The notes under the pieces were generated by a model. It saw nothing but the letters and a program-made list of their open reading frames with translations, was not told the origin of the DNA and searched no databases. Both the position numbers and the translations under genes were made by a program. From positions 1 to 26,307 of the IMG/VR virus record IMGVR_UViG_3300000116_000096: a stretch of DNA of 26,307 nucleotides. One strand, given 5' to 3'. Shown piece by piece: positions 1 through 18,300 of the stretch (positions are counted from its first letter, which is position 1; each line of letters opens with the position of its first letter). The DNA is from a virus.

Positions 1-3000
1 CGCATGTATTCGAGAAGTATCAGCAATGTTCCAGATATGAATAGGGCTTCCCATGCACTCAGGGTCTTTTACTAAGCTCGTACTTGGAAGGGTTCCGTCT
101 TCATTACGGTAATACATACCTAGCTTGGTAGAACGAGTACCGGAAAACCCATCCCCAAACACTTCGGTGCTTCCAGGCTGAGCGTTATTTTGGAATTGTG
201 TGTTATTGTTATTTCCCTTACCTGCTGCAGTATAGATAGCGCCTTGTCCGTCGTTGTCGTCATAAGAACCAACCGTGTTGGTTATGATGTCATCTTGAAT
301 CCTTCCCACGCGTCTTCCACTTCGAACATTCCTTGTAGACCCACCATCTGGGTTTCCATCATCCAGGTCTCCAGCGAGTACAGATGCTGCTGGTGGGATT
401 TCATCTGCGAGATACCCAGGACCAGTCGGAGGGTCTGTGGGACCATCGTCTCCCCCACCGACATCTTCAAGGTACTCACACCCGCTGCCATCCCAGTTAA
501 AGAAGGCTCCGGAAAGAGTTCCTGGTTGGCAGAACATTTGAAAGTTAATTAAATTTAAATCTAAGTTACTTCCGCCAACCGCTCTTGCTACCATGCCTCC
601 TGTGGTTCCATTTCCATGACGGTCCGATGGGTCGGTCGCCTCGTTATCAAGCAAATACCGTACAGTCGGGTTAAGAGCAGCAGCAAAATCGCACGCAGGT
701 CCGTTCTCAAAAACTAAACCGCTAACAAAAGCATTCGGGTAAAACTTCGCGTATCCTCCTGAGGTAGAAAGGGCGAATTGATTGTTTTGGTCTCCTAAGT
801 AGGTGTCCGCGTATCCGGTGGCTAAAACATCAACAGAGTCCAGGACTTCGCTTCCTGCGCTATCTCCAACAACTTTACCTCCAAGCGCATACATTCTAAT
901 GTTAGATTGTTTGTTCGCTACCATACATGAACGCGTGGAGTGTAACTCGAGCGAAGTATGATTACTTGAAGTGTCTGTACCTCCGGTAGGGTCAATTAGA
1001 TTGTACCCAGATACGTCTAGAATATTATCTGTACCTACTAAGGTAGGAGGATTTACTGAGAAGTTGGAGTTATTTTCAGCCAGTACGGGAATACCGAATC
1101 GGGACATTTTGGTTGGTCCGGTCATCTCCACATTAGAGTTATCAGTACCTAGAACACCAGCAGCTAACCAACTTCTAAATTGCCTTGCTTGAGTGTTTAC
1201 AGGAAAGTAACTCATAGTAGTTGCGCACCCTGAAGTTCCTCTAAAGATTAGATTGGAACCATTAGATGCAACAGCAACCTTTCCTTTGCCTGTGTCTGTA
1301 GAAGACGTGAGGTAGTTTACATTCACTAGCTCGGCATCAGAGTTGTTAGTGACCACCATTCCCGGAAGATTATTTTGTCGGTATGGAGTCGCGCCAAAGT
1401 GGGTCATAGGGGTGTAGAATACAGACGTGCCAATATCAAAATTACTAGAGTTCGTGCTAATCCAGTTAGCTCCACCCCATCTTCCATAAAATGCAGGGAT
1501 GTTATTCATCCTCTGTGGAGATATCGCAGACGATTTAGTAATTAAAAGATTTTGGTTGTTGTCACTGCAGTGAAATTGAGCGCGGTTTCTTATTCGAAGA
1601 GCTGCGTTGGCGGCTGAGTTGTTGAGAGCTGTATTCGTGTAGATTATCCCGTCATAGCTGTCAAGCTTTCTAAAGTTGCTGCCGGTGTCATCGATAATCT
1701 CGTCTACGCCCCAGCCATACGTTATTTGGGACCCTTGGGAATGAATACCATATCCACCGTTATGATTACAGGTAAATTGAGGTAATCTTACTTGGGAGCG
1801 CAGGGCTCTAATACCATCCTCTTGGTTGAGGTAACTGTTAACTCGTCCGTAAAACTCTACGTCACTCCCCTCTAAGTGCAAACCTGATTCGTTGCAGTCG
1901 GCGAAGTTAAGGATAGTAGTCATTACATCTCCTCCAGCTCCCGAGCAGTATAGTAAAGAAACTCCTGCACTGTTTGTGGCATCGAGTCCTAATGTTTGTG
2001 AGCCTCCGTTCGGAACCCCCGACACAACGGTAGAATAGATACCTCCGCGCATCGTACTATTTCGCAATTCCATACCTCTCTTGCTTTTACCAAACCAATT
2101 CAAATACTTACGGCTATCATGGTAATACGTCGAATCCCAAAGCATATCTGTGTTCACAGCTAAAACGCCGGTACCATCTTGTTTTCGGTCCGCTACGAGT
2201 TTGCCTGTTTTGGTATAGTTTCTCCATGCCATAAAGTGCCCAGTAAGTCTCAGTCGAGAATTTTTGAAGAAGTAGCCTTGCGCAGAGTTGCGGATTGATG
2301 CGGTATTATCTAAAATTACATCGCTACTTTCGATGTTCCACCCAGTCTCCGTAGTATGGATACATCCCGCGGCGTCATTATCAGATAATTGGTTTGAACC
2401 GTCTTGAAGAATATTTCTAAAAATAATCGTTCCTTGGCAATCCTTAACATTAATACTTGAAAACCAGTTACCGAAACCAGCTAACGTGCTTTGTCCACGA
2501 GTGAGTTGGCTTTCTCGCTTCGTTACCATAAAAGGGAAATCTCCTGGTACCGCGGGAAGGCGGTCTTCTGCAGTTCCCGACCCGAAGACAGGGTTAGCGT
2601 CACCCGTTGGAATAGTATAATCTACTGACGATGTATAAGCGGGCAATCCGAAACCGCCCTGGGTGAAGGTACCACCAGCGAACGCTCCTAAATCGTTTCC
2701 ACTAAAAATAGATACTGTCAGGTTATTCGCCTGTCTGTCAGTGTCAGGACCCTGCATAGTAAAGGTACGTGCATTAGAATTCCAACTAGCTTGGTTTCCG
2801 TATACGAGTTCCGTGCGAGTAGAAGAAACTCCCAACATCATTGCAGATGCAGGAATTGAGATGGAGCTGGCTAAGGTTGGTGCGTCGCCCGCAGGGCTAG
2901 TCACCGCGTTAACAGTGTTGCTGGCAGAGGCGTTTATATCCTCAAAGTAGGTTTGGTTTCTAAACTCCAGACTTCCATACCCTTCACAAGTAATATTAGC

Positions 3001-3348
3001 TACATCTAATTCGCCAAGTGCGCCATAGGTACATAACTCCACAAGAACCGGAAACTTAAGACGTTTAGGTATTCGTTCTACAATATCATCTATGTTATCA
3101 TAGATTCCCAAAGCTTCGTCGAAACTTCCTAGGGAAGATAATGTGAATGTCATGCCTGCAGGGTTTCCTCCAGGGAATCCAGCTTGGCTCCATAAAGTGT
3201 TACCTCTTTCCTCTAAAACCCATAATGGGATGTTATCTTGTTCCCAATTATAAAAGGAGCTAGGGTCATACTTAGGTACTCCCTCGCTGAAATTTAGAGG
3301 AGAGAGTGCGTCTCCACCTGAGCTTGTAATATCTTTAAAACTTACCAT
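1..3348 (-). CDS. Partial beta-helix tail spike/fibre protein (at least 1116 aa)
   Basis: A frame open from ATG at 3348 to the left edge (1116 codons, no stop), so the C-terminus is missing. The N-terminal 110 residues hold FYNWEQDNIPLWVLEERGN, YDNIDDIVERIPKRLKFP and VELCTYGALGELDV, probably an attachment region. The middle looks like a right-handed parallel beta-helix: SGLHLEGSD at 488, DGIRALRSQV at 511 and YGIHSQGSQI at 533 repeat at about 22-23 residues, the usual rung length of pectate-lyase-like folds. From about 950 to 985 there is an acidic Gly/Pro/Asp-rich linker (VGGGDDGPTDPPTGPG), followed by a distinct domain that continues out of the window. Such proteins often bind or cut surface polysaccharide; no catalytic residues can be assigned here. 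The start is in a TAATG overlap with the 208-aa gene, so it belongs to the same operon. Confidence 0.72.
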   Translation of the reverse strand, partial: MVSFKDITSSGGDALSPLNFSEGVPKYDPSSFYNWEQDNIPLWVLEERGNTLWSQAGFPGGNPAGMTFTLSSLGSFDEALGIYDNIDDIVERIPKRLKFPVLVELCTYGALGELDVANITCEGYGSLEFRNQTYFEDINASASNTVNAVTSPAGDAPTLASSISIPASAMMLGVSSTRTELVYGNQASWNSNARTFTMQGPDTDRQANNLTVSIFSGNDLGAFAGGTFTQGGFGLPAYTSSVDYTIPTGDANPVFGSGTAEDRLPAVPGDFPFMVTKRESQLTRGQSTLAGFGNWFSSINVKDCQGTIIFRNILQDGSNQLSDNDAAGCIHTTETGWNIESSDVILDNTASIRNSAQGYFFKNSRLRLTGHFMAWRNYTKTGKLVADRKQDGTGVLAVNTDMLWDSTYYHDSRKYLNWFGKSKRGMELRNSTMRGGIYSTVVSGVPNGGSQTLGLDATNSAGVSLLYCSGAGGDVMTTILNFADCNESGLHLEGSDVEFYGRVNSYLNQEDGIRALRSQVRLPQFTCNHNGGYGIHSQGSQITYGWGVDEIIDDTGSNFRKLDSYDGIIYTNTALNNSAANAALRIRNRAQFHCSDNNQNLLITKSSAISPQRMNNIPAFYGRWGGANWISTNSSNFDIGTSVFYTPMTHFGATPYRQNNLPGMVVTNNSDAELVNVNYLTSSTDTGKGKVAVASNGSNLIFRGTSGCATTMSYFPVNTQARQFRSWLAAGVLGTDNSNVEMTGPTKMSRFGIPVLAENNSNFSVNPPTLVGTDNILDVSGYNLIDPTGGTDTSSNHTSLELHSTRSCMVANKQSNIRMYALGGKVVGDSAGSEVLDSVDVLATGYADTYLGDQNNQFALSTSGGYAKFYPNAFVSGLVFENGPACDFAAALNPTVRYLLDNEATDPSDRHGNGTTGGMVARAVGGSNLDLNLINFQMFCQPGTLSGAFFNWDGSGCEYLEDVGGGDDGPTDPPTGPGYLADEIPPAASVLAGDLDDGNPDGGSTRNVRSGRRVGRIQDDIITNTVGSYDDNDGQGAIYTAAGKGNNNNTQFQNNAQPGSTEVFGDGFSGTRSTKLGMYYRNEDGTLPSTSLVKDPECMGSPIHIWNIADTSRIHA

Positions 3349-3974
3349 TAGAATTCGATTGTCCACCTGAATACAAGTATAAAGGCGTCAGTTTTATATA
3401 CTGGTTTAAAATACCTGTAGGCACATAAAAGAGAGCCTTCGGTCGCTTGTTGGTATGGGTTCTTGCTGTATAACCCAATTTCGTTTAGAGCTTCTGCGCT
3501 TCCCGGTCCGAACGGTGTTTCTCCGACATTAGCGGTCTGTTCATCTAACACAATTTGCCACATACATTTCGTATCGGTTACTCGCTTGATGTATGCATAA
3601 GGGATGGTTCCGAAAGCATCGTCTGTATTGGCTGTCCCGTCAATAATCGTATTATGTACAGATACTCCTAAATTGCCAGAACCATATTGGGTCTGGGTAA
3701 GAGCCGCGGACAAATCCCCTGTTGTAGATAATTGGAGGCTATCTCCGTATGACGTCGCGGTATCACTGCCCGATACACCTACTTTAAAGTATGGTATTTG
3801 AAAATTTTCTACGTTTGAGTCACCGGCAGCATCAAACATCTCAGCTAACGTCGCGCCCATTCCACTACAAATAACATTTTTGTCTTCCCAGTGCAATTCT
3901 TTAGACCCGTCAGAGAAATGTTTCCATATCTCTAAGTGTCCGTTAATATCTTTATTTAATTCAGAAAATTTCAT
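3348..3974 (-). CDS. Small tail-fibre-associated structural protein (208 aa)
   Basis: A single-domain structural protein that I would place at the periphery of the baseplate. The end carries a recognisable phage pattern: EALNEIGLYSKNP at about 160-172, then LLCAYRYFKPVYKTD at 182-196, and RWTIEF at the C-terminus. This 'EIGLy ... L.A...F.pv.K.....i.f.WtI.F' signature recurs at the ends of many phage fibre or structural proteins (recalled, not searched). The N-terminus has NGHLEIWKHFSDGSKELHWE followed by DKNV and a helix GATLAEMF. Both ends match the neighbouring 1500-aa protein in order. The ATG comes 3 nt after the TAA of that gene, in an A-rich leader without Shine-Dalgarno, and the stop forms a TAATG with the next gene. 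Confidence 0.68.
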   Translation of the reverse strand: MKFSELNKDINGHLEIWKHFSDGSKELHWEDKNVICSGMGATLAEMFDAAGDSNVENFQIPYFKVGVSGSDTATSYGDSLQLSTTGDLSAALTQTQYGSGNLGVSVHNTIIDGTANTDDAFGTIPYAYIKRVTDTKCMWQIVLDEQTANVGETPFGPGSAEALNEIGLYSKNPYQQATEGSLLCAYRYFKPVYKTDAFILVFRWTIEF

Positions 3975-3977
3975 TTT

Positions 3978-6900
3978 TTATTTAAGAAAGTCTATATCCC
4001 ATATTATAGTAAGCCAATCAGTATTTTGGTAATCAATATGTAGTCCAGGAGCAAAAGTTACTTTTTTGTTAGTTAACCTAAACACAGGATTGCGGGAAGG
4101 GTCAGCTACATTATATAGTGCCACTCTACTTCCTTGCGTATATGTCTCATCAGTCGAGCTTACCATTAAAGAAGTTCCTAATTTTTCGTAAGTTTTTTTG
4201 TAATCGAAAGTGTTTAAACCTAAGGCTCCGATACCTCCCATGTAATAGTCTAAGAACTTCCAATCGTCTTTATGTATTTTAAGAGCATACCGCACTACTT
4301 TTGGTTTGTGGGTCCATCCTGCATAAGGTGCAGTTACATAGGAGGAGGTGATAAAACCTGCACTAGCATCTAACTCATCTGTAACGGAATGTGGGTGTTG
4401 GTAAATATACCCATCACTATTCAAAACTCCCATGGTGTTCAAAGTTCCCGATAAAACTCCAGAAGAATTATATGTCCCAAAAGTACTAGAGCCGAAGAAT
4501 AGTCCTGCTGACGGTAAGTAGGCTCCCATAGCCACCGCTTCTTCCATGGTTACCTCTCCTGTTTTGGAAGGAGCCATGGGATTGCCGATACATTGAATAG
4601 AGCTGTAAGTAGAGCCAGCTGTCCCGCCAGTTCCCCCGGAAAAATCAAAGTACTGTATTCGATTTAAGAATTGTCCCAGTTCGCCCGGCGTACCCGGTCT
4701 TCCTTTTGATTGAAGGGTCTCATCCATTGGGGTAGGGAATTCAGGAAACAAGAACGTATCTCCGGAAACTCGGTACTGTTCGTATAATAAAGTATCGTAC
4801 CGATTAGCCTCTATGGTTCTATACACTCGGAAATCTTTAACAACAATATCATTTCTAGAAGTAGAATCAGGAACTAAACGTAGCGTTGCAATAATTTTTG
4901 TATTAGGTCCAAAGGTTGGTGCTTGAAGCTCAGGGGATGCTATCTTTGTCCATTGAGTTACATCTTGATAAGAGGAAACTCCTAAAGTATCTCCTCCTGC
5001 TCCTCCAATCCCTACCTCTTTAACTGAGTAAGCTTTTTCTCTGCGCTCAGCACCAGGAACCCAAACACTTGCATTAAAATCATAATGATAGCTGGTGCCT
5101 TGGTATTGGGTCTCAGCGCTAATATACGCGGTTATATTTCCTCCAGTAGAGTAGGTGATAGCGGTGTCGAATCCGAAAGCGAAGGAATCGCCTCCTTGCA
5201 AATCGTAATCAGCTAACATGAAACTACGGACCGCCCACGGGTAACGAGGAACATCGTTCTTGACGTTTTTAAACTCAATGGAAGGGGTCTTTCCGTCTGG
5301 CGTTGGTTCTCCTCTATAGTTACGAGGTTGGAATGCCGGTGGGTAAGTGGGCGCTACGGACCCTATTGCAATGGTTGACGGGTCAAACACATTCGTTAAT
5401 GTGCTGTAATATTTAAAGACAGTGGCGTTATCAAATTCATCGTAATGGGAATTTCCATAAAACTCACTTGTGAAGACAGAGCTATCCCTGACCCATCTGT
5501 CCGCTCCATCCGCGGCAATCAATGAAGCATCTGTAAGGCTTACATCAGTCAACATGAACTCCCCCCCAGATGTATTGATAATGTTTATTTGGTATTCGGT
5601 ATCTTCATCCAACCCGTAGAAGCACATATTAGATATATTGGTTTCTGGTGTGCAGAGAAAATTCCGTGTAGCTGTTTCAGCGGAAAGGTATCCCTCAAAA
5701 GAAGCAGCGTCGTAAGCGGTCGCCCAAGCGCCCGTATCCCATTGGTAATATAAATCTTTCCAAATGTCTACATTAGGTTCTTCTCCGTCGCCCAGAAGTT
5801 TAATATTTTTAACTAGAGTGCTGCCTTCAGTTGAGTTGGGTCCAAAAAGACCAGCCGTAATTTTGTAAGTGCCTAACAGCCCGTTTGAATCTGGGCTTGG
5901 GTCAGATGTAGGGGTTAGATTAATACTTTGAAAAGGTATTGGGTGCGGGTATTCAAAAGACGTATAGTCTTTGGAATTAACTGTTTTCGGTAACTCTAAA
6001 AAGTAGGCTCCCGAAGTGCTAGACCTGTAAGATGGTAGGGTGGTTGTAATATTATCCCATCCACCAGATTCCCAATTAAAGAAGGCGTTAGGTGCACTAC
6101 TCAACACAAAATACGAGCCCTCGTTATGGGAATTAAAAACATCCATAGAAAGATAATAAGGGCTCTCATTTCCTCGGGAGTCCTCAAACACATTATTACT
6201 TCCATCACTCATTGAGGAGCATCCTAGTAAAACGCCCCAATCCGTCGGCTTAGTTGAAGAGTCTGCTAAAGTTTTTTGGAAGTTTGGGAATATTCTTCTA
6301 AACGATTGTCCGTCATTAGAGTAAGGGTTTAGATGTGATACAGGGTAAGTGGTTGAAACCACCCCTGTATTATACTGAGCAAGTATATTATTTTTTCCAG
6401 GGGTTCTTACTTTCCCTCTAGTTCTAATTGAAGCCTTGAATGCGTCCCCGGACACAGTAGTGCCGTCCTTGAAAGCTCCTTTTAAGGCTAACCGATAACT
6501 TTTAGTCGGTGCTAAACCATGAAAGTTCTGGACAATCTGATTCTTGTATTGGTCTTTTGTATTGTTTACTGCCTGAAGATACCCTGCACTCCAACCGTAG
6601 CTTTGAGTATATGGACCACTAAAGGATAACCCTGAGTAGTTGAGTCCGGACGCCATTTGCGCATAAGTGTTGGAACTTAAACCCCACGCAGCAACACCAC
6701 TTTGGTCATATATGTAAGTCCTCCAACCTTCTAACTCGCCGAAGCTAAAATCTTTTATAGCGTAGTTGCAGAATCCGCGGGCGTCAGTGCGCCCCGAAGC
6801 TTTTATGCTTAAAGTGTAAGCATCTCTGTTTGCATCAGCGGGTAACAAAACAGGAACGGCTACATTAAACCAAGTGTCTTTAGCAGAGTATGGTATGATA

Positions 6901-8480
6901 AGAGGGATGTCTAAAGGCTCAAACTTATTGGATGTTTGTGTATTTGAGTTGGCACTAAAAGAATAGAGATATCCATCGGAATTTCTTAACAAGGAAATTT
7001 GAAGATGACCGGAGCCGGCGGCAGTACCAGCTCCCGAAACCATAGTATCAAATGAAAGTAAAAAAGTAGGGTTGTTGTCTGCCTGACCATTCGCTTCATT
7101 TAAATTTGTAGGGGTGTTAGAGAGGAGATTGGGGAATGCAAAATTATTTCTAACGTCGTCACCCAGCCCGAAAGCTTGGGATAAGGAAACAGCGCCACTA
7201 AAATCTCCAATGTTTGTTCCGGATGTATGCATTATAACTCCATCACTCATTGAGGAAAAGACAGTGTTAGCTAACTGGGAGGTGGAAGCGGGCTTAACGT
7301 ACCCAACGACATCCTGTAACTCTTCGGACGCAGGGTCGGCGGACCCCAAAATAGGGTTAACGATTGCCCATCCAGCTATATTCCTGTACCCAAGAGAATT
7401 ACATAGTCCGGGTTTTTGGGCTTCTTGCTCTGTTAGAGGAGCGGAATACCTAAAATCATTATTGACCATCCTGCTCTGATGAGTTAGGAAATTTGGGTTC
7501 TTAAGAATTTGATGTGATGCGTCACAAATTTCGATTCTGGCGATATCCACATATGGATTTTGCTGCTCAGTATCCCATGGGCGGAAATTAACATCTATAA
7601 AGGATTTGGAGGGGAATACAAACTCTGCGAAATACTCGTTGTTTTCTTCGAATGCTTGGTCTACTTCGTTACCCTTCAACGTGAAATTAAATTCATTTAC
7701 GTCAAACGTGTCTGTTAATAGAATAGAAGTTTGTGTGTTAGCTTTTAAGTTTGTTTTTGTAACAAATGTCCTTGTAGTGAAATCGTAGTATTCAAAAGGA
7801 ATTCCATTCCTACCCCGGGCAATCCTAAAATCGAAGGTAGCTTCATAAGCCTTTCCGTTGGTGTATAAGTAATAACTGTCGCCCAGACTCAAAGGAACTT
7901 GCTGGCGAATGGTTACGGCTTGTTGTCCTTTCACAAGCTCAAATCGTGTGACGGGTTGAGTGCTTCTCCCAAAGCCTTCTGCTCTTACAGAGATTGGGTT
8001 GGGGAGAGGGTCTTCCTTATAAAGCACTTCCCAGTTTCCCGCGGAATTAAAGGCTCGATTACGACCCACTAGTTGAGGAGACTTCAGAATATTTGCGTCT
8101 ACTGTGCTGTCGTATTTCCAAGAGTTGTATCCAATCCCGGAATAACAATCGTACATTTCAAAATAATCGTCCGGCTTTAAAGGAAGTTGTTGGTAGTTGT
8201 AAGAAGAATACTCCATAGCACTATACCAAAATCTACTGTCCCTTTTGTCGTAGTACCCTTTCGCGCTTCCTAAACTCATCGCTTGAATTTGATAACTTGA
8301 GACAGAGCTTACCCCTGGCTCCAAGTACTGTACTTCTCCAGGGACTGAGCTAGGGTCTGGCATGTACGTCATAACATCTGCTATTGCTCGGCGTACCCCA
8401 TCCACTGCCATATTCTCTTCTTGGAATATGACCTTCTGGCTATTGCCATAGTTTTGAATTATTTGTATGTTACCTTTCAT
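3978..8480 (-). CDS. Giant multi-module tail-fibre/adhesion protein (1500 aa)
   Basis: Probably a peripheral tail or receptor-contact protein. It is almost wholly beta-rich and Gly/Ser/Thr/Asn/Tyr-rich. Several divergent beta-sandwich modules can be discerned, each closing with a similar strand: near residue 310 (DIARIEICDAS), about 474-582 ending AIKDFSFGELEGW, near 890 (TLVKNIKLLGDG), about 939-984 ending FMLTDVSLTD, and about 1084-1222 ending IVVKDFRVYRT. Such endings are typical of carbohydrate-binding-module-like jelly rolls. The first 82 and last 107 residues resemble the first 80 and last 70 residues of the adjacent 208-aa protein, which suggests a common ancestral domain opened by insertion. 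The ATG lies 11 nt inside the end of the preceding gene and lacks a Shine-Dalgarno. No enzyme motif was seen. Confidence 0.65.
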   Translation of the reverse strand: MKGNIQIIQNYGNSQKVIFQEENMAVDGVRRAIADVMTYMPDPSSVPGEVQYLEPGVSSVSSYQIQAMSLGSAKGYYDKRDSRFWYSAMEYSSYNYQQLPLKPDDYFEMYDCYSGIGYNSWKYDSTVDANILKSPQLVGRNRAFNSAGNWEVLYKEDPLPNPISVRAEGFGRSTQPVTRFELVKGQQAVTIRQQVPLSLGDSYYLYTNGKAYEATFDFRIARGRNGIPFEYYDFTTRTFVTKTNLKANTQTSILLTDTFDVNEFNFTLKGNEVDQAFEENNEYFAEFVFPSKSFIDVNFRPWDTEQQNPYVDIARIEICDASHQILKNPNFLTHQSRMVNNDFRYSAPLTEQEAQKPGLCNSLGYRNIAGWAIVNPILGSADPASEELQDVVGYVKPASTSQLANTVFSSMSDGVIMHTSGTNIGDFSGAVSLSQAFGLGDDVRNNFAFPNLLSNTPTNLNEANGQADNNPTFLLSFDTMVSGAGTAAGSGHLQISLLRNSDGYLYSFSANSNTQTSNKFEPLDIPLIIPYSAKDTWFNVAVPVLLPADANRDAYTLSIKASGRTDARGFCNYAIKDFSFGELEGWRTYIYDQSGVAAWGLSSNTYAQMASGLNYSGLSFSGPYTQSYGWSAGYLQAVNNTKDQYKNQIVQNFHGLAPTKSYRLALKGAFKDGTTVSGDAFKASIRTRGKVRTPGKNNILAQYNTGVVSTTYPVSHLNPYSNDGQSFRRIFPNFQKTLADSSTKPTDWGVLLGCSSMSDGSNNVFEDSRGNESPYYLSMDVFNSHNEGSYFVLSSAPNAFFNWESGGWDNITTTLPSYRSSTSGAYFLELPKTVNSKDYTSFEYPHPIPFQSINLTPTSDPSPDSNGLLGTYKITAGLFGPNSTEGSTLVKNIKLLGDGEEPNVDIWKDLYYQWDTGAWATAYDAASFEGYLSAETATRNFLCTPETNISNMCFYGLDEDTEYQINIINTSGGEFMLTDVSLTDASLIAADGADRWVRDSSVFTSEFYGNSHYDEFDNATVFKYYSTLTNVFDPSTIAIGSVAPTYPPAFQPRNYRGEPTPDGKTPSIEFKNVKNDVPRYPWAVRSFMLADYDLQGGDSFAFGFDTAITYSTGGNITAYISAETQYQGTSYHYDFNASVWVPGAERREKAYSVKEVGIGGAGGDTLGVSSYQDVTQWTKIASPELQAPTFGPNTKIIATLRLVPDSTSRNDIVVKDFRVYRTIEANRYDTLLYEQYRVSGDTFLFPEFPTPMDETLQSKGRPGTPGELGQFLNRIQYFDFSGGTGGTAGSTYSSIQCIGNPMAPSKTGEVTMEEAVAMGAYLPSAGLFFGSSTFGTYNSSGVLSGTLNTMGVLNSDGYIYQHPHSVTDELDASAGFITSSYVTAPYAGWTHKPKVVRYALKIHKDDWKFLDYYMGGIGALGLNTFDYKKTYEKLGTSLMVSSTDETYTQGSRVALYNVADPSRNPVFRLTNKKVTFAPGLHIDYQNTDWLTIIWDIDFLK
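6201..6218. repeat. 18-nt direct repeat, copy 1
   Basis: The bases tccatcactcattgagga occur here and again at 7239-7256, in the same orientation and the same reading frame of the 1500-aa gene. Both copies encode SSMSDG. The flanking codons differ, so this is a short relic of module similarity or a conserved local motif, not a mobile or regulatory repeat. Confidence 0.6.
7239..7256. repeat. 18-nt direct repeat, copy 2
   Basis: Second exact copy of the 18-nt sequence at 6201-6218, about 1 kb away in the same gene. The translated context is NTVFSSMSDGVIM here and VLLGCSSMSDGSNN in the other copy. Confidence 0.6.
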
Positions 8481-11400
8481 TATCTACAAAGCCGTATACG
8501 CCGTCTGTTGCGGAGTGGCTACCACCCCAGTATTGGAGGTACTCATTTCGAGAGCCTCCATGTGTTAGGTAGGTGCCCGATGAGTCTTGTGCGTCTCGTG
8601 ACGATTTAGTGTTGTTTAAATCGTCGAAGAATTCGAAAACATCTCTAAAATCTTTTCTTGTATAATCCGCAGCATAAATATTATAGTTTTTATTTATTAA
8701 GTTTGTGTCTAATAATGTGACACCATTATTTAACCCAGTATTAGTAGGTTTTCCAATTTCTATGTAATAAACCGAATTGGAATCGTGAACTGGTCCTGCT
8801 GAAGTGAAGTATCCGTTGAGAGGTCCGTCTAACGCAAAGTATCTTAGTGGAGTCCGGGAGTTAAACGTATTGAACTCTAAACCAAACTCTTGTCCTTTGG
8901 CAGTCGTAGAGGTGACGTCCAGAGCTTTCCACATTTCGTTTCTCTCCGTAGTAGCAGTGTCATCCCAACTCTTAGTACTCCAGTTATACGCCCAAGATTT
9001 TGCAACTTTATTCCACCCATTGCCAACAAATGGTTTTTGTTCAACTACAACGCGAACCTGTAATCTTTCGTTTACCCCACTCAACCCTTGATTGATATTG
9101 GCTACGCGGGCGCGAACGCCCAACTTGTACTCTTGTTCAGCGAACAATTTATTTCCATCACCCCCATAAAAAGATTTTGTGGTTTGTAAAGGTCCTTTGA
9201 AATGAGTTCTAATATCTCGAACCCCAATAGTGTGTACTGCTGTGTTGGTCGCGTTAATAGGGAGAGTCCATAACTGGTAGCTGTCTCCTTTTTCGAAAGT
9301 GTAATCTGTGGTGAAGTCAGTAGTGTATTCTTTCCAAGTTTCTGTTTCTTGTGCTGCAGAGGTAAGAGGGTTTGTACCACTCGCTAAACCGAATACGGCA
9401 TTGCCAGACAAAGCAACTGTGTTAGAAGCCCACGACGTTCCGTTCCAATGTTTTCCTTTGGTCACATTAAATAAAGCGCCTACGATAGAGGGGGCTCCTG
9501 TGCTGAAGGTAGATGACGCCTCTAGCGTAATACTGTAACGGGTATTGGGTTCAAGGTCACGTAAATTTTTAGGGGTTTGTCTGTCCGTGGTCTCCACTAC
9601 TGTTACTAATGCAGGGTTGTCTTGGTTTCCTAAAGGTTTAGTACCTGCGCTATTTATATTTCCCCGACCTTTACAGGACAGGTAAACAGCAGGCAAAGCG
9701 CTTGTGCCCGGAGTCTCCATTAAGAGTGCTTGACGTCCAGCCGCAATAGTTCTGTTTCCATCGTACTGAGCTATGTTAGGTGCTCTGAACTTATCTACCA
9801 GGCGCCATCCCGCGATAGAGGACAAGGCTGCGTTTTGCAGAGCGTCATCCAAAGGAGGAAACTTGAACTGCCCGTTATAAGAGTAATTCATATTTCCGTT
9901 CAAAGGGAATCTAACCCTCATCCCTTCTCGTACATTATCCGTGTTATGCCTTTGAATTAAAGTTAACCCGTTAGGTTTAATATTATCAACATTGTAACTT
10001 TCGTTTTCAGGAGCGTTCCATACAGCTATGCTGTTTACAGCAGGGCACACCATTTCGATTCCTGAAAGGAGTGTGCCGTTGGAAAAAACAATTTGGTTAG
10101 GGGCTTCGAAAACATCCAGAGGATGGAAATAGGTTCCATAGGCTCCAGCTTGAAGGATTCCTTCGGACAAATCTTTTCCATTCCCATCAGAAGTATGTAA
10201 ATGGAAATCTTCTCCGATTGCTTGCGTAGCTACCACCGAACTCCAATCATAGTTTAGAGAGGAGATACTTGCGCTTCTTTGGTTTAGAGCTATAGCAGAC
10301 ATATTAGAAATAACCCCTCCCTTTATAGAAAAATTATTATTAAATAACCCAGGACCAAATACGTGTGCTAGGATGTTGAACCCTCCTGCGTAGTCTTGTC
10401 GGGGTTGTAATGTAGCACCCGGGACAACATTTAAAAGTTGTCGGCTAAACTTAGTATTATACTCTTGGTAGAGGGCAATTATCTCACGACCAAATTTAAA
10501 ATTTTGAAAACTAGCGTTGGAAAAATCTAACCAACGAGAATCGGATTTACTTCTTGTTACAAATATCTGCGTAAGCGCGCGCAAAATCTGGGACCCGAAT
10601 ACATCCCTATACTGATTCCAGCTTGATGCGTTAGTATTGTAATCCGATACGGCTCTAACAGGGAAGTTGGACGACCCAGCAAATTCGAAGAATGGTGTGG
10701 CTGACGTATTGTATTGAGAATACACAGAGGATAGGCTTCCACTAGTACTTACATATTGTTGTGCTGAGAAATCGAATCCTTTAGGGACAAAGCCAGGTAT
10801 TTCTAAGCTTCGTTCGGTATTGGTTCCGGTTAAAAAGTAATCAGTAGGACCAGGTTGGTTTAGTCCCTCTCTATTTTGTGCCCACCCAATAAACTTATAT
10901 TTTAAATTTTTTCTTCGACCTGCGGTTCGTGGAAGGTCTGTAAGGGCTTTTAATGCACTCGGTCCGGTAATAGTTCCTCCACTCCAAAAATACCCATCGC
11001 TTAACAAGGTAGCCGAAGGTATCCAGCGAGCTTGCTTAGGGTTGTATACACTAGGAGAGATGCCTACACTTGAGAAATATCCGTGGTCTGGGGCTTGGGT
11101 TCCAGGGAATCCGTCATACGCGTACGAACTGTTAAACTGGTCGGCGTCTGACTGTATCGTGTTAATGATTTGCAGGTCGTTAGTACCAGACCAAGCGCTT
11201 GTCGGGTCATCATCTCCAGGAGCATTGTGGCGTCCTCCATAATTTTCATCAATCCCCGAGCCAACAAATATTTTGTTTAATGCATGGAAGGGAGCAAACT
11301 GTCTAAAAATATCAATAATAGTAGGGATGCCTTTTCTCCCTAACTTTGTTTTGGTTACATCTAAGTAATCATCCCGGGTAAAATCAATAGAGGAAAGATT

Positions 11401-13323
11401 AAATTTGGAATGCACTTCCGAAGATTTGGCGTTCCAGTAATCGAATACTGACATACCATCGATGTTACCTTCCCTGATTATTGTCCCGTAATTGTAAGGG
11501 AGGTTGAGCGATGAGCTCATAAACTTAAAACTGTTATTATCTCCAAACCCAGGCTCTAAGAAACCGTTCTGGTTCTTTATTCCTATTGAACTAACGATGT
11601 ACTCCGCTACTTGGTGACAACTGGACGTCTCTATTCCAAGCCCTAAGTTTTCTATTGGTCGCGACATTAAAGATGACATCGAGCGGACAAGAGGTTCCGT
11701 TAGAGTACAGTTTTGGTAAAACCTATGTTCTTCCCAAGGTGGTATTTGAAAATCATACCCACGATAAAAATATTTTCCTTTGCTTATATCTCCAGTCGAA
11801 CTTACTTGTCCTGCAATATATGCAGTAGAGCTAACAGGTTCTGTTCCTATTAACAAATATGGGTCAGTTATGTTCAGGTATGTTAGAATAAAGTCTACGA
11901 TATACCTAGCGTTATTATCCGGGTTGACAGGGTCATATGGTTTGGTACCTATTTTAAGTCCAGAGGAATCAAATCTTCGCTGCCACGCTTTCGCTAAGGA
12001 TAAATAAGCTGCTGGGTCGGTAGCAAAATTAGTCTCGGTCTTAATAGTATAATAAATTAAGTTAGGGAAATATGATTCCCATAGTTCTTGAAGTCCACTG
12101 GTTTCCGCGTTTACATTATAAACGGAAGAAGGGATGACCATGTTAACAGCATTCGCTAACGCTTGTCGGGTACCTTTCGATTTGTAAAGAAAAATAGCTT
12201 GTTTTAATTGGTCGCGCCATTGAGCTGGGTCGGTTGTGAAGAAGGTCCAACCTAAGTATCTTCCCAAGTATTGTAAAAATTCCTCAGGACATTCTTCGAT
12301 ATCCAACAAGAATTGAACGTCTCGCACCGTATTCTTTACATCATAAAAAGCGTATGCCAATGCTTTGAGCATTTTCCCCATTGGACCGGCGTTCTCCATA
12401 CGAGAAACATTTAATCCTAGAAGAGAAGCGTTAACAATATCTCTAAAGTAAAGGGAGTTAGGGTCATCCTCATTTACCCATACTTTTACCAGGGTGTCCA
12501 AGGAACTAACTAACTGTCCGCCAGATGCCCAGTAATTATCTACATAAGTGGATGATGGGGCATTAAAGGGCGGGCTTATATAATTAGACCCTGCGGTTTC
12601 CCATGCTGACCCTCCGCCTTGAACATTCAAAGCAAGCCATTTTACTAAGTCGGAAACTCCTGTCTCCGTAGTAAAGTTCTGTCCGTAATACAAATCCTCG
12701 TTTAAAGAACTTAATAGGACAGAGCTAGGAGCAATAGAGTTAGCATCCGAGATTAAACCACTTGTGTTTAGAAAATACGCAAACCCCAGTTCTTCGATAA
12801 GTTTATCCTGAACCAAAGCAACAGAGCTTACCGTGTTGTCGACGATAGCCTCGTAGTTGGATGCAAAGGAGGGTGTTACTAGGTTGAGGTGGGTCTCAGG
12901 AAGAGCGCTCGTAATAAGAAACGAGCTGAAGTCTGATACGCTAGGAAAATCGTTAAATGTTTTGTTGTAAGGTCGAAGGATATGGTTTTCAAACCTTTGA
13001 GGAGACACATTCGTGAGTTTATTGAAGGGGACAAAATACGGAATCAGCGCCTGGTTTCCGCTTAAGGCAGATGCTTGGCTCGTTTCCGGGGTTGCGATAA
13101 CAGAGGACAGATTACTAGCTAGGCTTAATAAACGCGCTAGTACATTGTACTGCAAATCTTCCTCCTCTCCAAAGAGGGAGTATTCCGTCTCCTCGTAGAA
13201 CTCAGGGACAATACGTCGAAGCACTTCAATATAATTAGACTTGAAGTGCTGTTGGTTAGGACCTACATCGGTATTGCGAGTAGGACGGTACCCAGCGTTT
13301 TTCCTGTTGGGGTTAATAGGCAT
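8470..13323 (-). CDS. Giant wedge/adhesion protein with gpI-like domain (1617 aa)
   Basis: Occupies the gp7/Afp12 position after gp25 and gp6, and probably links the wedge to the peripheral fibres. Residues about 315-400 carry the tail-protein-I signature: a helix followed by LDIEECPEEFLQYLGRYLGW (near 342), WRDQLKQAIFLYKSKGTRQA (near 365-384) and ALANAVN. In P2 gpI and relatives this 'CP...L..La..lg ... R..i..a...yr.KGT' pattern anchors the protein on gpJ/gp6. The C-terminal 1000 residues are beta-rich; two jelly-roll or carbohydrate-binding-module-like units are visible at about 1255-1378 (LEPNTRYSITLEASS to TIGVRDIRTHF) and about 1392-1530 (EYKLGVRARVANI to YYIEIGKPT). The N-terminus begins MPINPNRKNAGYRPTRNTD, disordered-looking. 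The start is in a TAATG overlap with the gp6-like gene, and the stop overlaps the next gene by 11 nt. Wedge assignment is firm; adhesion is inferred. Confidence 0.75.
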   Translation of the reverse strand: MPINPNRKNAGYRPTRNTDVGPNQQHFKSNYIEVLRRIVPEFYEETEYSLFGEEEDLQYNVLARLLSLASNLSSVIATPETSQASALSGNQALIPYFVPFNKLTNVSPQRFENHILRPYNKTFNDFPSVSDFSSFLITSALPETHLNLVTPSFASNYEAIVDNTVSSVALVQDKLIEELGFAYFLNTSGLISDANSIAPSSVLLSSLNEDLYYGQNFTTETGVSDLVKWLALNVQGGGSAWETAGSNYISPPFNAPSSTYVDNYWASGGQLVSSLDTLVKVWVNEDDPNSLYFRDIVNASLLGLNVSRMENAGPMGKMLKALAYAFYDVKNTVRDVQFLLDIEECPEEFLQYLGRYLGWTFFTTDPAQWRDQLKQAIFLYKSKGTRQALANAVNMVIPSSVYNVNAETSGLQELWESYFPNLIYYTIKTETNFATDPAAYLSLAKAWQRRFDSSGLKIGTKPYDPVNPDNNARYIVDFILTYLNITDPYLLIGTEPVSSTAYIAGQVSSTGDISKGKYFYRGYDFQIPPWEEHRFYQNCTLTEPLVRSMSSLMSRPIENLGLGIETSSCHQVAEYIVSSIGIKNQNGFLEPGFGDNNSFKFMSSSLNLPYNYGTIIREGNIDGMSVFDYWNAKSSEVHSKFNLSSIDFTRDDYLDVTKTKLGRKGIPTIIDIFRQFAPFHALNKIFVGSGIDENYGGRHNAPGDDDPTSAWSGTNDLQIINTIQSDADQFNSSYAYDGFPGTQAPDHGYFSSVGISPSVYNPKQARWIPSATLLSDGYFWSGGTITGPSALKALTDLPRTAGRRKNLKYKFIGWAQNREGLNQPGPTDYFLTGTNTERSLEIPGFVPKGFDFSAQQYVSTSGSLSSVYSQYNTSATPFFEFAGSSNFPVRAVSDYNTNASSWNQYRDVFGSQILRALTQIFVTRSKSDSRWLDFSNASFQNFKFGREIIALYQEYNTKFSRQLLNVVPGATLQPRQDYAGGFNILAHVFGPGLFNNNFSIKGGVISNMSAIALNQRSASISSLNYDWSSVVATQAIGEDFHLHTSDGNGKDLSEGILQAGAYGTYFHPLDVFEAPNQIVFSNGTLLSGIEMVCPAVNSIAVWNAPENESYNVDNIKPNGLTLIQRHNTDNVREGMRVRFPLNGNMNYSYNGQFKFPPLDDALQNAALSSIAGWRLVDKFRAPNIAQYDGNRTIAAGRQALLMETPGTSALPAVYLSCKGRGNINSAGTKPLGNQDNPALVTVVETTDRQTPKNLRDLEPNTRYSITLEASSTFSTGAPSIVGALFNVTKGKHWNGTSWASNTVALSGNAVFGLASGTNPLTSAAQETETWKEYTTDFTTDYTFEKGDSYQLWTLPINATNTAVHTIGVRDIRTHFKGPLQTTKSFYGGDGNKLFAEQEYKLGVRARVANINQGLSGVNERLQVRVVVEQKPFVGNGWNKVAKSWAYNWSTKSWDDTATTERNEMWKALDVTSTTAKGQEFGLEFNTFNSRTPLRYFALDGPLNGYFTSAGPVHDSNSVYYIEIGKPTNTGLNNGVTLLDTNLINKNYNIYAADYTRKDFRDVFEFFDDLNNTKSSRDAQDSSGTYLTHGGSRNEYLQYWGGSHSATDGVYGFVDNER

Positions 13324-14942
13324 TATACGAACTCAATAGTAAATTCAAAGTTGTTTAGTTGCGCAATCTCATTGAAGTTCAAGAAGATATCAGCGGGGAG
13401 GTTGTCTATATTAAAGAACCTAATTTCAGGAACCTCTAACATAAAATTAGTAACGGATGCTATAGATAGCTTCTGTCCGAACGCCATATTATCTACATTA
13501 AAGTACTCTACCAATTTGTTAGCAGCTTTAGCTTTAATACTGTCCGCGTTGGCACGATTAGATTTATCAATAAATATAGTAGCGACAATATCTAAGGTTC
13601 TGATGACTCCGTCCGAGATTACCACCTCATCAGTTAGCATTTTATAACTTTTAAAGTAGTCTAGCATTTCCTTCTTGAACGCAATCGAAGCCCGCTCCAA
13701 CTGGTTGCTTGATGCTTTCGACAGAATAAATAAATCAATTACGTTGGCAGCTGCTCCATTTTTACGTAAGGATGCCATAGCTTTAGCCGTTACCCCAGTA
13801 TTTCCTACAAAGGAATTAGCTAACGCGTTGTAGTCTTCCCCTGTGACGGCGCGATACTGAGTTCTGAAGAAATAGGGGGCGTAGCGTTTCGCATGTTCTA
13901 CCGTCTCAGCGGCTTGTCCTCCGGTGCCTTTCGTGGTATTAGTTATCGTAGCGTTAGCAGTAATACCACCAATCCTTACAGTTACATTCTGGTTAACGTT
14001 GCCTCGCACGATATCACCATTTACCCCTCCGCCTTGGCGATAGGTTACGATGTAAGTAGCTCCAGGGTTAGGTAGGCGTCCACGAACACCGTCACCAAAC
14101 TCCAGCACTGCCCCAAATCCATCAGTGTATTGTTTTTGGAAGACAGGGTCGCCGCCTCCAGACGCAACAAACAAATTCGATATTTCGTTATAGTAGATTC
14201 CCTCGCTAGAGGAAACTCCGATACTGCCTTCAATGATTGGACCATCTTGAATGGTTATCGTTTGGCGGCTATCAGCCGCATTAAATTGACCCGATTTAAC
14301 TTGTAGGGAGCCCTCTAAAAGAAGAAGTGAGTCGTTGACTCTGGCCGTAAAATCCGAGTTCGGAATCGATAAGTCTTGAGTGAACAAATCTAATTCTCCA
14401 TTGGTTTGTTGTTGGCAAATGGTGTAGGTTAAAGGAGTACCGCTTCTTTGGTTAACGATATTAATCCTTCTTTGTGATTCAGAGATAATAACGTTACCGC
14501 CCATGGACAAGGCGATATTGGAGGGGAGCGTAAGTGAAGCGTTTGCGCGGGAAGCAGTAGGTCCCTTCATAGAAACCCCAATCAATTGCAAAAGTCTTTT
14601 TAAATTATTTTCGTCTTTAACGGTGTCAACATACATCTCGTTCGCAGTCATGTCTGCTCTAAGTGTTAGGACAGACCCCATGTACGCAAACATCTCTACC
14701 ATCATCTGCCCTAAGTCGGACGAAGCAAAGTTGTTGTAATCTAAAGGGTAAACTGCTTTGAGATAGTTTTGTAATGCTACGCGGTAATCATCAAACCCTT
14801 TAAGATTGTAATCAATAAGATTTGATTTTCTATCATCAGGTATTTGACCTAATTTTAAAAAATCAGATTCAATAGAGCCATCAAAGCCGGATACATTGTA
14901 TACGCCTTGAAAAAATTTAGAAAAGTCGGTTTGGTTTGCCAT
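13323..14942 (-). CDS. Baseplate wedge protein, gp6/baseplate-J-like (539 aa)
   Basis: The dimer-forming wedge protein that builds the iris ring of the baseplate. The core motifs of the J family are visible: FGDGVRGRLPNPGATYIVTY at about 282-301, GGGVNGDI at 304-311, then TNTTKGTGGQAAETVEHAKR at about 334-353, and RAVTGEDYNALA at about 364-375. The last pair matches the 'tN...a.GG.d.Es....k..ap ..RaVT..Dy' signature of baseplate J/gp6/gp47 proteins. The N-terminal 120 residues are helical and include AYPLDY-like contacts (VYPLDYNNFASSDLGQMMVE), as in gp6-type proteins. The C-terminal third is an alpha/beta region with repeated IFID/ITV-type strands. T4 gp6 has about 660 residues, so this is a compact member. 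TAATG overlaps occur at both ends, with gp25 before and the gpI-like gene after. Confidence 0.9.
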   Translation of the reverse strand: MANQTDFSKFFQGVYNVSGFDGSIESDFLKLGQIPDDRKSNLIDYNLKGFDDYRVALQNYLKAVYPLDYNNFASSDLGQMMVEMFAYMGSVLTLRADMTANEMYVDTVKDENNLKRLLQLIGVSMKGPTASRANASLTLPSNIALSMGGNVIISESQRRINIVNQRSGTPLTYTICQQQTNGELDLFTQDLSIPNSDFTARVNDSLLLLEGSLQVKSGQFNAADSRQTITIQDGPIIEGSIGVSSSEGIYYNEISNLFVASGGGDPVFQKQYTDGFGAVLEFGDGVRGRLPNPGATYIVTYRQGGGVNGDIVRGNVNQNVTVRIGGITANATITNTTKGTGGQAAETVEHAKRYAPYFFRTQYRAVTGEDYNALANSFVGNTGVTAKAMASLRKNGAAANVIDLFILSKASSNQLERASIAFKKEMLDYFKSYKMLTDEVVISDGVIRTLDIVATIFIDKSNRANADSIKAKAANKLVEYFNVDNMAFGQKLSIASVTNFMLEVPEIRFFNIDNLPADIFLNFNEIAQLNNFEFTIEFV

Positions 14943-15352
14943 TATAGTAGAAGCTCTACAAATTCAGTGTTCAGTAAGTCATCCTTTGAGCTTAATGATA
15001 ACTTGATTGTTAATTTATTGGTTTCCCAATCAGGAATTAAGTTTAAACTTTTGAGAACTACTCGTGGTTCGTACTTAGCGATAGTAGAGGTTATTTGAGC
15101 CCGTAAAGTATCCATTAACCGTGAGTCCATAGGTTCAAACATGCTGCTGCGGATGTCCGTGCCGTAGTCGGGTCGCATTACCCTTGCACCACGACGCGTC
15201 ATGATTAATTGAATTACACAATCTCTTAGTGAGCCCATATTCTCATTAGCGGTTAAATAACCTCCAACCCCGTCATTTCTCATAGGAAATGCTAAGCCCA
15301 GGATTCTGTTTTTTCCTGGGACGCTTACGTATTCTAAATCAAAGTTACTCAT
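14942..15352 (-). CDS. 25: Baseplate wedge protein, T4 gp25-like (136 aa)
   Basis: The sheath-baseplate connector found in almost all contractile tails. Its diagnostic motifs are all present: a short helix SLRDCVIQLIMT at 41-52, RRGARVMRPDYGTDI at 53-67, FEP at 72-74, and the EPR triad at 95-97 preceded by AKY. In gp25/Afp9 proteins the EPR motif helps build the core bundle with gp6. Length (136 aa) is normal for the family. It ends in a TAATG overlap with the gp6-like gene, its physical partner, and starts 2 nt after the preceding gene's stop. No Shine-Dalgarno is seen, so it may rely on translational coupling. Confidence 0.93.
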   Translation of the reverse strand: MSNFDLEYVSVPGKNRILGLAFPMRNDGVGGYLTANENMGSLRDCVIQLIMTRRGARVMRPDYGTDIRSSMFEPMDSRLMDTLRAQITSTIAKYEPRVVLKSLNLIPDWETNKLTIKLSLSSKDDLLNTEFVELLL

Positions 15353-15354
15353 TG

Positions 15355-18300
15355 TTATAATAGTATGTTTTTAAAGAAACCTTTTTGGGAATCAAAATTA
15401 AGTGTTGCCTCTGTAGTAGATAGAGGTTTTGCGTAAATCTTGAAACTACCAACATATCCGTCTAACCCACTTCGTGGTATCTGGTAACGGCTGCCGTTAG
15501 ACCCTCCTGAACCATTGGAGAGAGGGGGTGTGTGTTGTCCTGTAATAAAGGTACCGTAAGAACCTAGTGATTCGGTAACAACAGTCTGACCTAATGTGGT
15601 TTCCTGGTAAGTATTATTTGTGTTGCTCCCCAGGAATCCTTGTGGGCGGTAGCTGGTACCAGCGATACTTGGCATATTATCGCTATACCCACCCCCGATT
15701 ATCCAAGGAGTAAATACCGGGAACGCTACTCGTTCAGGTGTTACATACTCATCATAAATATCATTTCCTAAAAATGACTCTTTGGTAGGATTATTGTAAC
15801 TAATGGTATCCGACTTGTCAGCTAAGTCTATTCGGACAGCAGTAGGTGTTTGTAGTACTTCAGGTTTAACTCCTAGAACATCTGTGATTGAAGATGTTAC
15901 GAGATGTTTCCCGTCTAACATAATTCTAGTTTCATTATTAGGGTAATCAAATGAGATGTTAAAGTGAACGAATGAGCCGCTGGCATCGCCGATACCAGAG
16001 CCGTCGGAGGTTCTGATTGAGCTTGTTACGTACATCCCTACCTCAGACGTCTCCGTCGGGCTAGGAGCTAAAGAAGTACCGTCCCATTTTTCTGCTATAC
16101 AGGTACTGTGTCCCCAAGAAACTGTCGGGTTTTCTGTGTAGTACTGGTTCTGTGAAACTGTTGGGCTTATAATAAACTCCAACCCACTTGAAGAGGTTAA
16201 GCGTGTGGTGCCGGCTCCTTGAGGGTCTCCCTTGTCTCGCCAACCAATCATCATACCTACAGTTCGATTAGTGGACTGGTTTAAGCCAATAGTAGTTGGT
16301 CCCCCATTTTTACTTAAAATTCCTGCATTTACATAATCATTAACTACTGGTCCACTGTTTTCGTTAGATAGCACAAGTCTATATCTATGAAAGGGGGTTA
16401 AAGCATCTGTAAGTGTAGGTACGTAGGTCCAGAAATCGAAGCTAACGCCACTGGTACCATAAAAAATATTATCCAGGGGTTTGCTTCCTTTGTAAGGCGT
16501 TCCAAAGGTCTCATAACCTTTTGTTATGTTAGGTAGGCTAACATAAGACCCTTTTATACCTGACCACTGAGTGCCATATTTGGCTTCTTCATCAAAGATG
16601 GTTCCACCCATATACGCAGTACCTACTCCCGAAGGGAATACGAAGGAAGGGCTATACCCTACAAGTTTACCGTCCATTCGCGGGGAACCTTCGGCTGCAT
16701 TATTTAAACCATATAAAGTTCCTGAAGGTTGTGTAACTGCTTCAGGGTCCAAGAAATTATAACATGCCACCAGCTCGTCTGACGCTATGTCATCGGTTAG
16801 GGATTTATAAGAAGGAGTAATCGAGCTGATACTTCCGGAGGATTCCCGGTGGACCCAGTCACCATACCCTATCATATCAACAGCAAGCGCGTCTGTGAAG
16901 TTTTCTGGGGTTTCTGGTGCAACTACGTACTTTGCTTGGTACGGCGCTACAACCGTGTCTAAATCCTCTGAGAAGAGGGTTATTTTTCTTTGGAGAGGTA
17001 ACGGAACATCGCTGCTTTTTAAATACGAGAAGTCGTTAATAGGAACACGAGGAATCTCTTGCCATTTACCTTGTATAGCAATAACGTTTGCCGCGTCAGG
17101 AACATCAACTACCTCATTACTTACAGTGTCCCAAGCTACAGTTGCCCCACCCTCACCTTCCAAAAAAGACGTTGTCTTCATAGAGTCCGGCTGGTCATCA
17201 TACTTTAACTTGTATTCAAATAATTTACCTGTAGGGGCTACGTACTCAAAAAATATACCCTCTCCTAGAGGATGGTCTCTGTCTGTTACTATAAAGGAAT
17301 TTCTACCGTAAATTGCCGCAATCTCTAACTGGCGTTTTCGTTTACGAATTTTAGTATCGTAGATGGCTACGACGCTACCTAGCTGAGAATAATAAGATTG
17401 GACTACGGCATCCGTCTCAGAGTAACCATTATTTTTAATCTCCGAAATATACCCCGAAACTTCCGTTAGTTGAGCTTGTCTGTCATCAGCAAACTGTTGA
17501 AGCACATCGTCGTACTCGTAAAAATCTATTACACGTTGACTGTTTTCTCCTAAATCAGTTTCTAATGCAAAGATAGTACCTGCCTGTGTGTACCCATCTT
17601 CTTCCGTAAACTGGGCGCCTCTACCCCCTTTATTGGAATCGTAGTCAAGGGTCCACATAGTGGACGATAGGGGGTCGAGAGGTATTTGGGGAACCTCCTG
17701 GGTGCGTGAGTTGTAATAAAGACCGTCTTGAGATAATACAAACTTATTCCCGGCAGATATCGGAGGTCCATACTCCAAATCAAAGGTGGGGGATACTATA
17801 TCAATCCCAGAAAGCTGTGCTGTTAAGGCTTCAATAAATAATTCGTTCTGGGCGAAAGGGGCGATGATGGTGTCTTCGACAAACTCCTTCAGGTTTTCTT
17901 GTGAAGTAGCCACCATTCGCCGGACTCCCGGTGGAAGAGTGTCCATATCTAAAGCCTTTAGATTGAGTTGGGGCTCTGGTAACTTACCGTCCGCCCGTTT
18001 TTGTAAAATGTCAGCGATTAGAGCTTGTGTTACATCAATTTGATTGATGTCCGTTTGTAGTGCAGAAGATTTCTGGTTGAGCATTGCTACAGTGGACTCT
18101 AATCTCGGGGAAGCTTGGTTTGGGGAGCTCTCGTCAAAAAAGGATTCAATCTCGGAGTTCATTTGTGTTACGTCGTCCTGTGTTGCGATTTCATCGGTCG
18201 TCCCCGGCACAAACACTGGAATGTCCTGCGGGTTTGTTAGCCCGTTGTTTAGTACGTTAGCGCCGTTAGCCCACGCTAAAGACGGGGAGGACATACCTTG

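Follow-up and report, generated by a model that had tools for sequence, protein, structure and literature searches.

The window analysed here is a stretch of 26,307 nucleotides (positions 1 to 26,307 of the IMG/VR virus record IMGVR_UViG_3300000116_000096), part of a 32.9-kb virus record, in which the large genes all lie on the minus strand and make up a T4-like baseplate operon. Two adjacent genes of this operon, encoding the proteins p208 and p1500 of 208 and 1500 amino acids (aa), are tandem paralogs of one small baseplate domain, which in p1500 is interrupted by a long insert. In the following, alpha denotes the p1500 slot, gamma denotes p208, and beta is a third paralog, which many distant relatives hold between alpha and gamma and which is absent in the lineage of the window.

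A sequence-only reading of the window had described p208 and p1500 as neighbours that match at both ends, in order and at low identity, and had explained them by a tandem duplication followed by the growth of one copy through insertion. The two open reading frames (ORFs) are indeed adjacent, 3 bases apart; they stand side by side in close and distant viral contigs, and 10 close IMG/VR contigs conserve them together with the adjoining genes, the close homologs of p1500 (n = 10) measuring 1487–1553 aa. In about 95 related viral contigs, cited below by L numbers, the gamma slot always measures 189–231 aa and the alpha slot ranges from 327 to 2161 aa. The parts of the two genes are as follows:

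3348..3974, minus strand: gamma (p208), putative minimal connector-domain protein of 208 aa (ORF; orthologs of 189–231 aa; phrog_5417 match; AlphaFold2 (AF2) model), with an N half at about residues 10–70, a variable loop at 71–135 and a C half at 136–208
3978..8480, minus strand: alpha (p1500), 1500 aa, the same domain opened by an insert (ORF; close homologs; short-alpha profile in two blocks)
8193..8480, minus strand: alpha N-terminal block, residues 1–96, strand-strand-helix-strand, upstream side of the insertion site (short-alpha profile, hidden Markov model (hmm) positions 1–91, 46 bits; gamma link at E 1e-7)
4758..8192, minus strand: lineage-specific insert of alpha, residues 97–1241, matching no known family (gap between the two profile blocks)
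3978..4757, minus strand: alpha C-terminal block, residues 1242–1500 and stop (hmm 117–305 at 1242–1437, 39 bits; 1245–1499 at an independent E-value (i-E) of 2e-11)
3978–4301, minus strand: alpha residues 1394–1500, counterpart of the gamma C half, within the alpha C-terminal block

Homology of the ends of p208 and p1500

The pair of sequences taken alone is not linked above chance: pairwise BLASTP of p208 against p1500 gave no match (best E 1.5), in keeping with the very low identity. The link comes from the comparison of family profiles at both ends, which had been proposed as a check, and it follows the register that had been drawn by eye. With shallow families, the N-terminal 41 columns of gamma and alpha are linked at E 3e-4 and the C-terminal halves show no link; with deep families (96 gamma and 53 short alpha sequences), the N halves are linked at E 1e-7 and score 47.4, where 100 column shuffles reach 19.4 at most; for the C halves the score is 26.7, again above every shuffle (maximum 21.4). 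The N halves of beta and alpha are linked at E 5e-10, and gamma and beta align across the whole domain (hhalign probability 100, E 1e-45). In the profile alignment of the N end, gamma GHLEIWKHFSDGSKELHWEDKNV..ATLAEMF pairs with alpha KGNIQIIQNYGNSQKVIFQEENMA..RAIADVM and gamma FQIPYFKVG with alpha YQIQAMSLG; at the C end the preceding strand, the EIGLY / ALGL block and ILVFRWTIEF / LTIIWDIDF (gamma / alpha) pair up.

The structural models likewise share fold matches: those of p208 and of a short alpha hit common small viral proteins, 8 of the top 15 matches of the gamma model being found in the top 15 of the alpha model. The AlphaFold model of the short alpha (L042, 357 aa, 54 rows; predicted local distance difference test (pLDDT) 83.7, predicted template modelling score (pTM) 0.85) has the strand (E) and helix (H) order E2-10 E16-23 H28-39 E59-65 .. 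E258-265 E281-287 E313-320 E345-352, and the same order is found in the p208 model (E11-19 E25-35 H40-50 E60-67 .. E136-144 E161-170 E181-187 E199-207). Among predicted viral structures the alpha model matches proteins of 150–214 aa along its whole length (350–380 columns), with a template modelling (TM) score of up to 0.67 by target; as modelled, these matches look like the small domain alone, the additional stretch of alpha falling into a gap of the alignment.

Both models (p208 at 3348–3974 and L042:6242-7315) further match B2CRN3, a protein of a filamentous archaeal lipothrixvirus and thus of a different kind of virus; the p208 model also matches A7WKQ9.

The very low pairwise identity, together with C halves that are weak on their own, would suit a convergence of short beta-strand motifs of phage proteins, in which the likeness of the ends would not reflect homology. 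This explanation is scarcely credible, as the profile links are ordered, run from terminus to terminus and exceed all shuffles, the genes are adjacent, beta is an intermediate and the structural matches are held in common. The resemblance of the ends is confirmed as real, and p208 and p1500 are tandem paralogs.

Insertion site and growth of alpha

A profile of 53 short alphas (327–427 aa), built without any sequence of the window, matches p1500 in two blocks, at residues 1–96 (46 bits) and 1242–1437 (39 bits), with a full-length E of 1.8e-25. A second profile, of nine alphas of 357–630 aa and likewise free of window rows, gives residues 1–78 (i-E 5e-10) and 1245–1499 (i-E 2e-11). Two collinear blocks imply a single point of insertion for 1145 residues (97–1241), about 25 residues past the third strand. 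The sequence-only reading had put the insert at about 1300 residues, which holds relative to gamma; against the orthologous short alphas it amounts to these 1145 residues, because alpha already had its own elaboration of 150–200 residues, common to all alphas and absent from gamma. Other long alphas also show two blocks, and most of their inserts lie at the site used in the window (model positions about 90–110); five alphas (L185, L192, L193, L196 and L203) have an insert at about position 171 and three (L102, L107 and L191) at about 301. Two alphas of 2132–2161 aa (L032:1580-7978 and L033:1493-7978) apparently carry one insert at the first site and a separate one at the third.

The window's insert (97–1241) gave no Pfam match above the cut-off and its family retrieved nothing in a PDB search, nor were significant internal repeats seen, so that its description as a series of beta-sandwich modules stays conjectural. 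Repeats within p1500 and modules in common with the neighbouring 1617-aa protein were set aside as unconvincing (best hhalign score 24.7 in 1131 comparisons), as was an aromatic motif noticed in the insert by inspection (4 occurrences versus 0.8 expected, with up to 5 in 1000 shuffles), which was post hoc and left unused.

Relatives have neighbouring paralogs, and C-terminal extensions of beta reach 1355 aa, so large coding stretches do occur between paralog heads; p1500 might on that basis be a fusion of the N fragment of one paralog and the C fragment of another around an unrelated gene. Such an origin is very improbable, given that in short alphas a single ORF, at the same place in the operon, carries both blocks, that alphas of intermediate length (551–1198 aa) have the same two blocks, and that the short-alpha profile recognises p1500 at both ends as an alpha and not as a beta or gamma.

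The direction of the change was read from a gamma tree (94 sequences) with 8 betas as the root. Short alphas accompany all of its earliest branches (30 rows), and the clade of the window (21 rows, support 99) goes entirely with long alphas of 1198–2161 aa. Long alphas fall in separate clades, and the starred branches cannot be explained with fewer than three changes for a long alpha, a count of labels that on an unrooted tree cannot separate gain from loss. Several inserts align within the clade of the window and none gives a BLAST alignment with those of other clades. The short alphas on the earliest branches, the number of changes and the lack of alignment between clades therefore favour growth by insertion that took place more than once, the root and the long branches leaving some doubt.

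The same uncertain root and the age of the duplication leave room for the opposite course, in which evolution started from a large two-ended alpha, whose central part was deleted to give gamma, beta and the short alphas. It is improbable: besides the short alphas at the base of the beta-rooted tree and the scatter of long alphas with non-aligning inserts at three sites, single-copy gamma-like proteins of 164–188 aa exist in other phages, and unrelated inserts would have had to be excised precisely many times over. Growth of alpha by insertion is instead supported by the fact that half of the orthologs are short (47 of the 94 from the tree contigs, at 327–427 aa), while the long ones have the insert between two collinear blocks. 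The tandem duplication that the sequence-only reading had supposed likewise stands, as paralogy and the third copy kept in distant relatives attest; it is not local to this virus, being old and common to the whole clade.

Baseplate context and putative function

The genes surrounding the pair follow the order gp25-like, gp6/J-like, gp7/gpI-like (1617 aa), p1500, p208 and large fibre-like protein:

14942..15352, minus strand: gp25-like wedge protein (phrog_261, E 1.2e-23)
13323..14942, minus strand: gp6 / baseplate J-like wedge protein (phrog_219, E 1.8e-33)
8470..13323, minus strand: gp7/gpI-like wedge protein (BW3), 1617 aa (Tail_P2_I PF09684 at residues 319–396)
1..3366, minus strand: probable fibre- or spike-like protein downstream of gamma, a large ORF that runs off the window (homologs adjoin gamma in close relatives)

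The 1617-aa protein passes the gathering score of PF09684 (29.0 bits against a cut-off of 20.6). Its Tail_P2_I domain begins only at residue 319, and most of its length is without assignment. The protein at 1..3366 measures 1403–1447 aa in complete close relatives, and its position suggests a fibre or spike. Further along the window, a 1054-aa protein (15355–18519) has no PHROG match, and a 365-aa protein (18529–19626) has neither a Pfam nor a PHROG match.

Searches by tblastn of p208 and p1500 against 50,697 phage records gave no match, and those with L049 gamma or beta and L169 alpha found no named relative; only L102 gamma retrieved named phages. The named gamma relatives, Salmonella phage Arash gp15 and those of Vibrio phage D69 and HGTV-1 (gp28), sit directly after J and gpI-like genes, a position that gp8 occupies in T4 and gp105 in A511, some of these neighbours being recognised by order only. 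No Pfam or NCBIfam family lies above the cut-off for gamma or alpha. Gamma members match phrog_5417, which itself carries no assigned function: p208 at E 0.0026 over residues 153–208, all 18 gamma members tested (best 3.7e-8) and Arash gp15 at 3e-16; the short alpha L042 has no such match. Against PF25691, Arash gp15 (E 0.061) and D69 gp16 (E 0.11) stay below the cut-off. In hhalign against gp8 and gp105, the C halves of four named gamma relatives are at or just above shuffles and the marine gamma is not above them. T4 gp8 was discarded as a profile-detectable homolog, with no link for the marine gamma, beta or alpha.

Recognisable modules are found in the relatives. RCC1-like beta-propeller repeats occur inside four alphas (L184:5998-9246, L201:3622-6567, L118:1451-4432 and L109:2672-5941), at or near the insertion site of the window, with RCC1_2 at up to E 4e-51 in L184; the latter alpha has a weak Kelch match as well. 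Three betas end in a C-terminal sulfatase domain, by Pfam in L192:7914-11981 and L203:7809-10970 and by similarity in L193:7905-10778; the Cys-type active-site signature C-x-P-T-R (C-S/T-P-T-R) is present in L192 and L203 (MCSPTRSTIMAG, ACTPTRGTFLTG). A virion sulfatase of the Cys type would need formylglycine maturation. The beta at L121:5989-8460 has an extension resembling an alpha/beta hydrolase or acetyl-xylan esterase, with GFSQG and weak Pfam matches. Sulfatase and esterase modules would suit the modification of surface polysaccharide, and propellers would suit binding.

These data can be joined in the following model. The old paralogs, encoded right after the gp7/gpI-like wedge protein, derive from one small baseplate domain, which gamma retains nearly bare; in alpha the domain was opened between the third strand and the C-terminal strands, first by the alpha-specific elaboration of 150–200 residues and then, in the lineage of the window, by the single insert of about 1145 residues. 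The domain may dock on the gp7/gpI-like wedge protein and connect fibres or spikes to the baseplate, in the manner of T4 gp8 and A511 gp105. The closed domain would go on docking there, with the insert hanging outside and binding host surface polysaccharide, which the modules of relatives would alter chemically; the insert would thus widen or strengthen adsorption. The window's insert is without a known family and its binding role is therefore something that we infer, as is the docking on the wedge protein.

Taken as a whole, alpha is probably a tail-fibre connector that was opened by insertion in one of two old paralogs and decorated with host-surface modules, a reading built on the computed homology, register, insertion site, gene order, repeated growth elsewhere and modules in relatives. 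Several points weigh against it. The C halves alone are linked weakly (E about 1e-3), and none of the known binding modules is recognised in the insert of p1500. The AF2 model of p208, from a shallow alignment of ten rows, is poor (pLDDT 50); the folded alpha is the distant relative L042, not p1500, and the likeness of the two models is one of strand order and common matches. Foldseek of the alpha model against PDB found no matching solved structure (best E 0.8), so no solved member fixes the function.

As regards function, the insert could be purely structural, a spacer or an enlargement of the baseplate that does not contact the host, consistent with its lack of a recognised binding or catalytic domain and with the structural elaborations of large baseplates. 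This is rather unlikely: the propellers held by other lineages at the same site and the sulfatase or hydrolase on a neighbouring paralog suit surface contact better, and between lineages the inserts are unrelated or fast-diverging, as adhesion modules are. If the host-surface role is accepted, the two or three tandem connector paralogs might form a kind of plug-in rack, in which alpha (with at least three insertion sites) and beta (with a C-terminal port) take interchangeable modules, namely inserts of no known family up to about 1500 residues, RCC1 propellers, sulfatases and hydrolases, and gamma stays bare; host recognition could then evolve without touching the fibre genes. This extension is offered tentatively, with slightly less than even confidence.

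Comparison with known systems

The connectors named BW3TFN (T4 gp8, gp105 of Listeria phage A511 (6HHK) and the Milano garland proteins; PF25691) tie fibres to the wedge (PMC10811340). Their genes directly follow that of BW3 (gp7/gpI/gp104), the order being J-like, gp104, gp105 in A511 and 6-7-8 in T4, as here p1500 and p208 follow the 1617-aa protein with Tail_P2_I; the domain is also small, and by eye a similar block (EIGLF / RQVGVF) and layout of C-terminal strands can be seen. In contrast, the alpha model retrieved no 6HHK or 1N7Z chain among the 50 PDB matches listed. Gamma and alpha may be said to work like BW3TFN connectors rather than to be such, because the sequence links to PF25691, gp8 and gp105 stay near the cut-off or the shuffles.

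In the evolved Dit (evoDit) of lactococcal skunaviruses and other siphophages, internal inserts with carbohydrate-binding modules aid adsorption (PMC10688798). There as here a short baseplate protein is opened by internal insertion, with ends that align to the full short form and an insert between them; the likeness is one of architecture, an analogy that makes no claim of membership. Dit is a siphophage baseplate component encoded elsewhere, whereas the present family lies beside gp7/gpI in contractile tails, in two or three tandem paralogs, with an insert of 1145 residues against 168–319 aa in the cited Dit cases. Family scans of the window proteins gave no match to the Dit family, which together with the position after gp7/gpI argues against membership. 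By analogy, p208 and p1500 are best read as a contractile-tail counterpart of evolved Dit.

Bacillus phage Vp4 Gp119 and Deep-Blue Gp177 are wedge proteins with and without extra carbohydrate-binding modules, and only the decorated form binds cells (PMC11406892). This pair likewise offers a plain and a decorated form; it differs in that Gp119 has recognised modules in a protein of 831 aa, whereas here the insert opens the domain itself and belongs to no known family.

A literature search of incomplete coverage found the combination of features in no report. Decoration of tail-protein domains is known mainly from the evolved Dit of siphophages of Gram-positive hosts and from one Bacillus myophage wedge protein; it now appears in uncultured contractile phages, in a baseplate family that has no name, where the adjoining bare paralog serves as a built-in control. 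The extra stretch looks like a means of attaching host-recognition parts to a standard tail connector, and the series of sizes, the insertion sites and the modules of relatives, including sulfatases, suggest a testable rule for finding such hidden parts in phage dark matter, which is to compare paralogs and cut at the insertion site. With respect to the known systems, what is new is the different domain family, the tandem occurrence of bare and decorated copies, the much larger inserts and their three sites.

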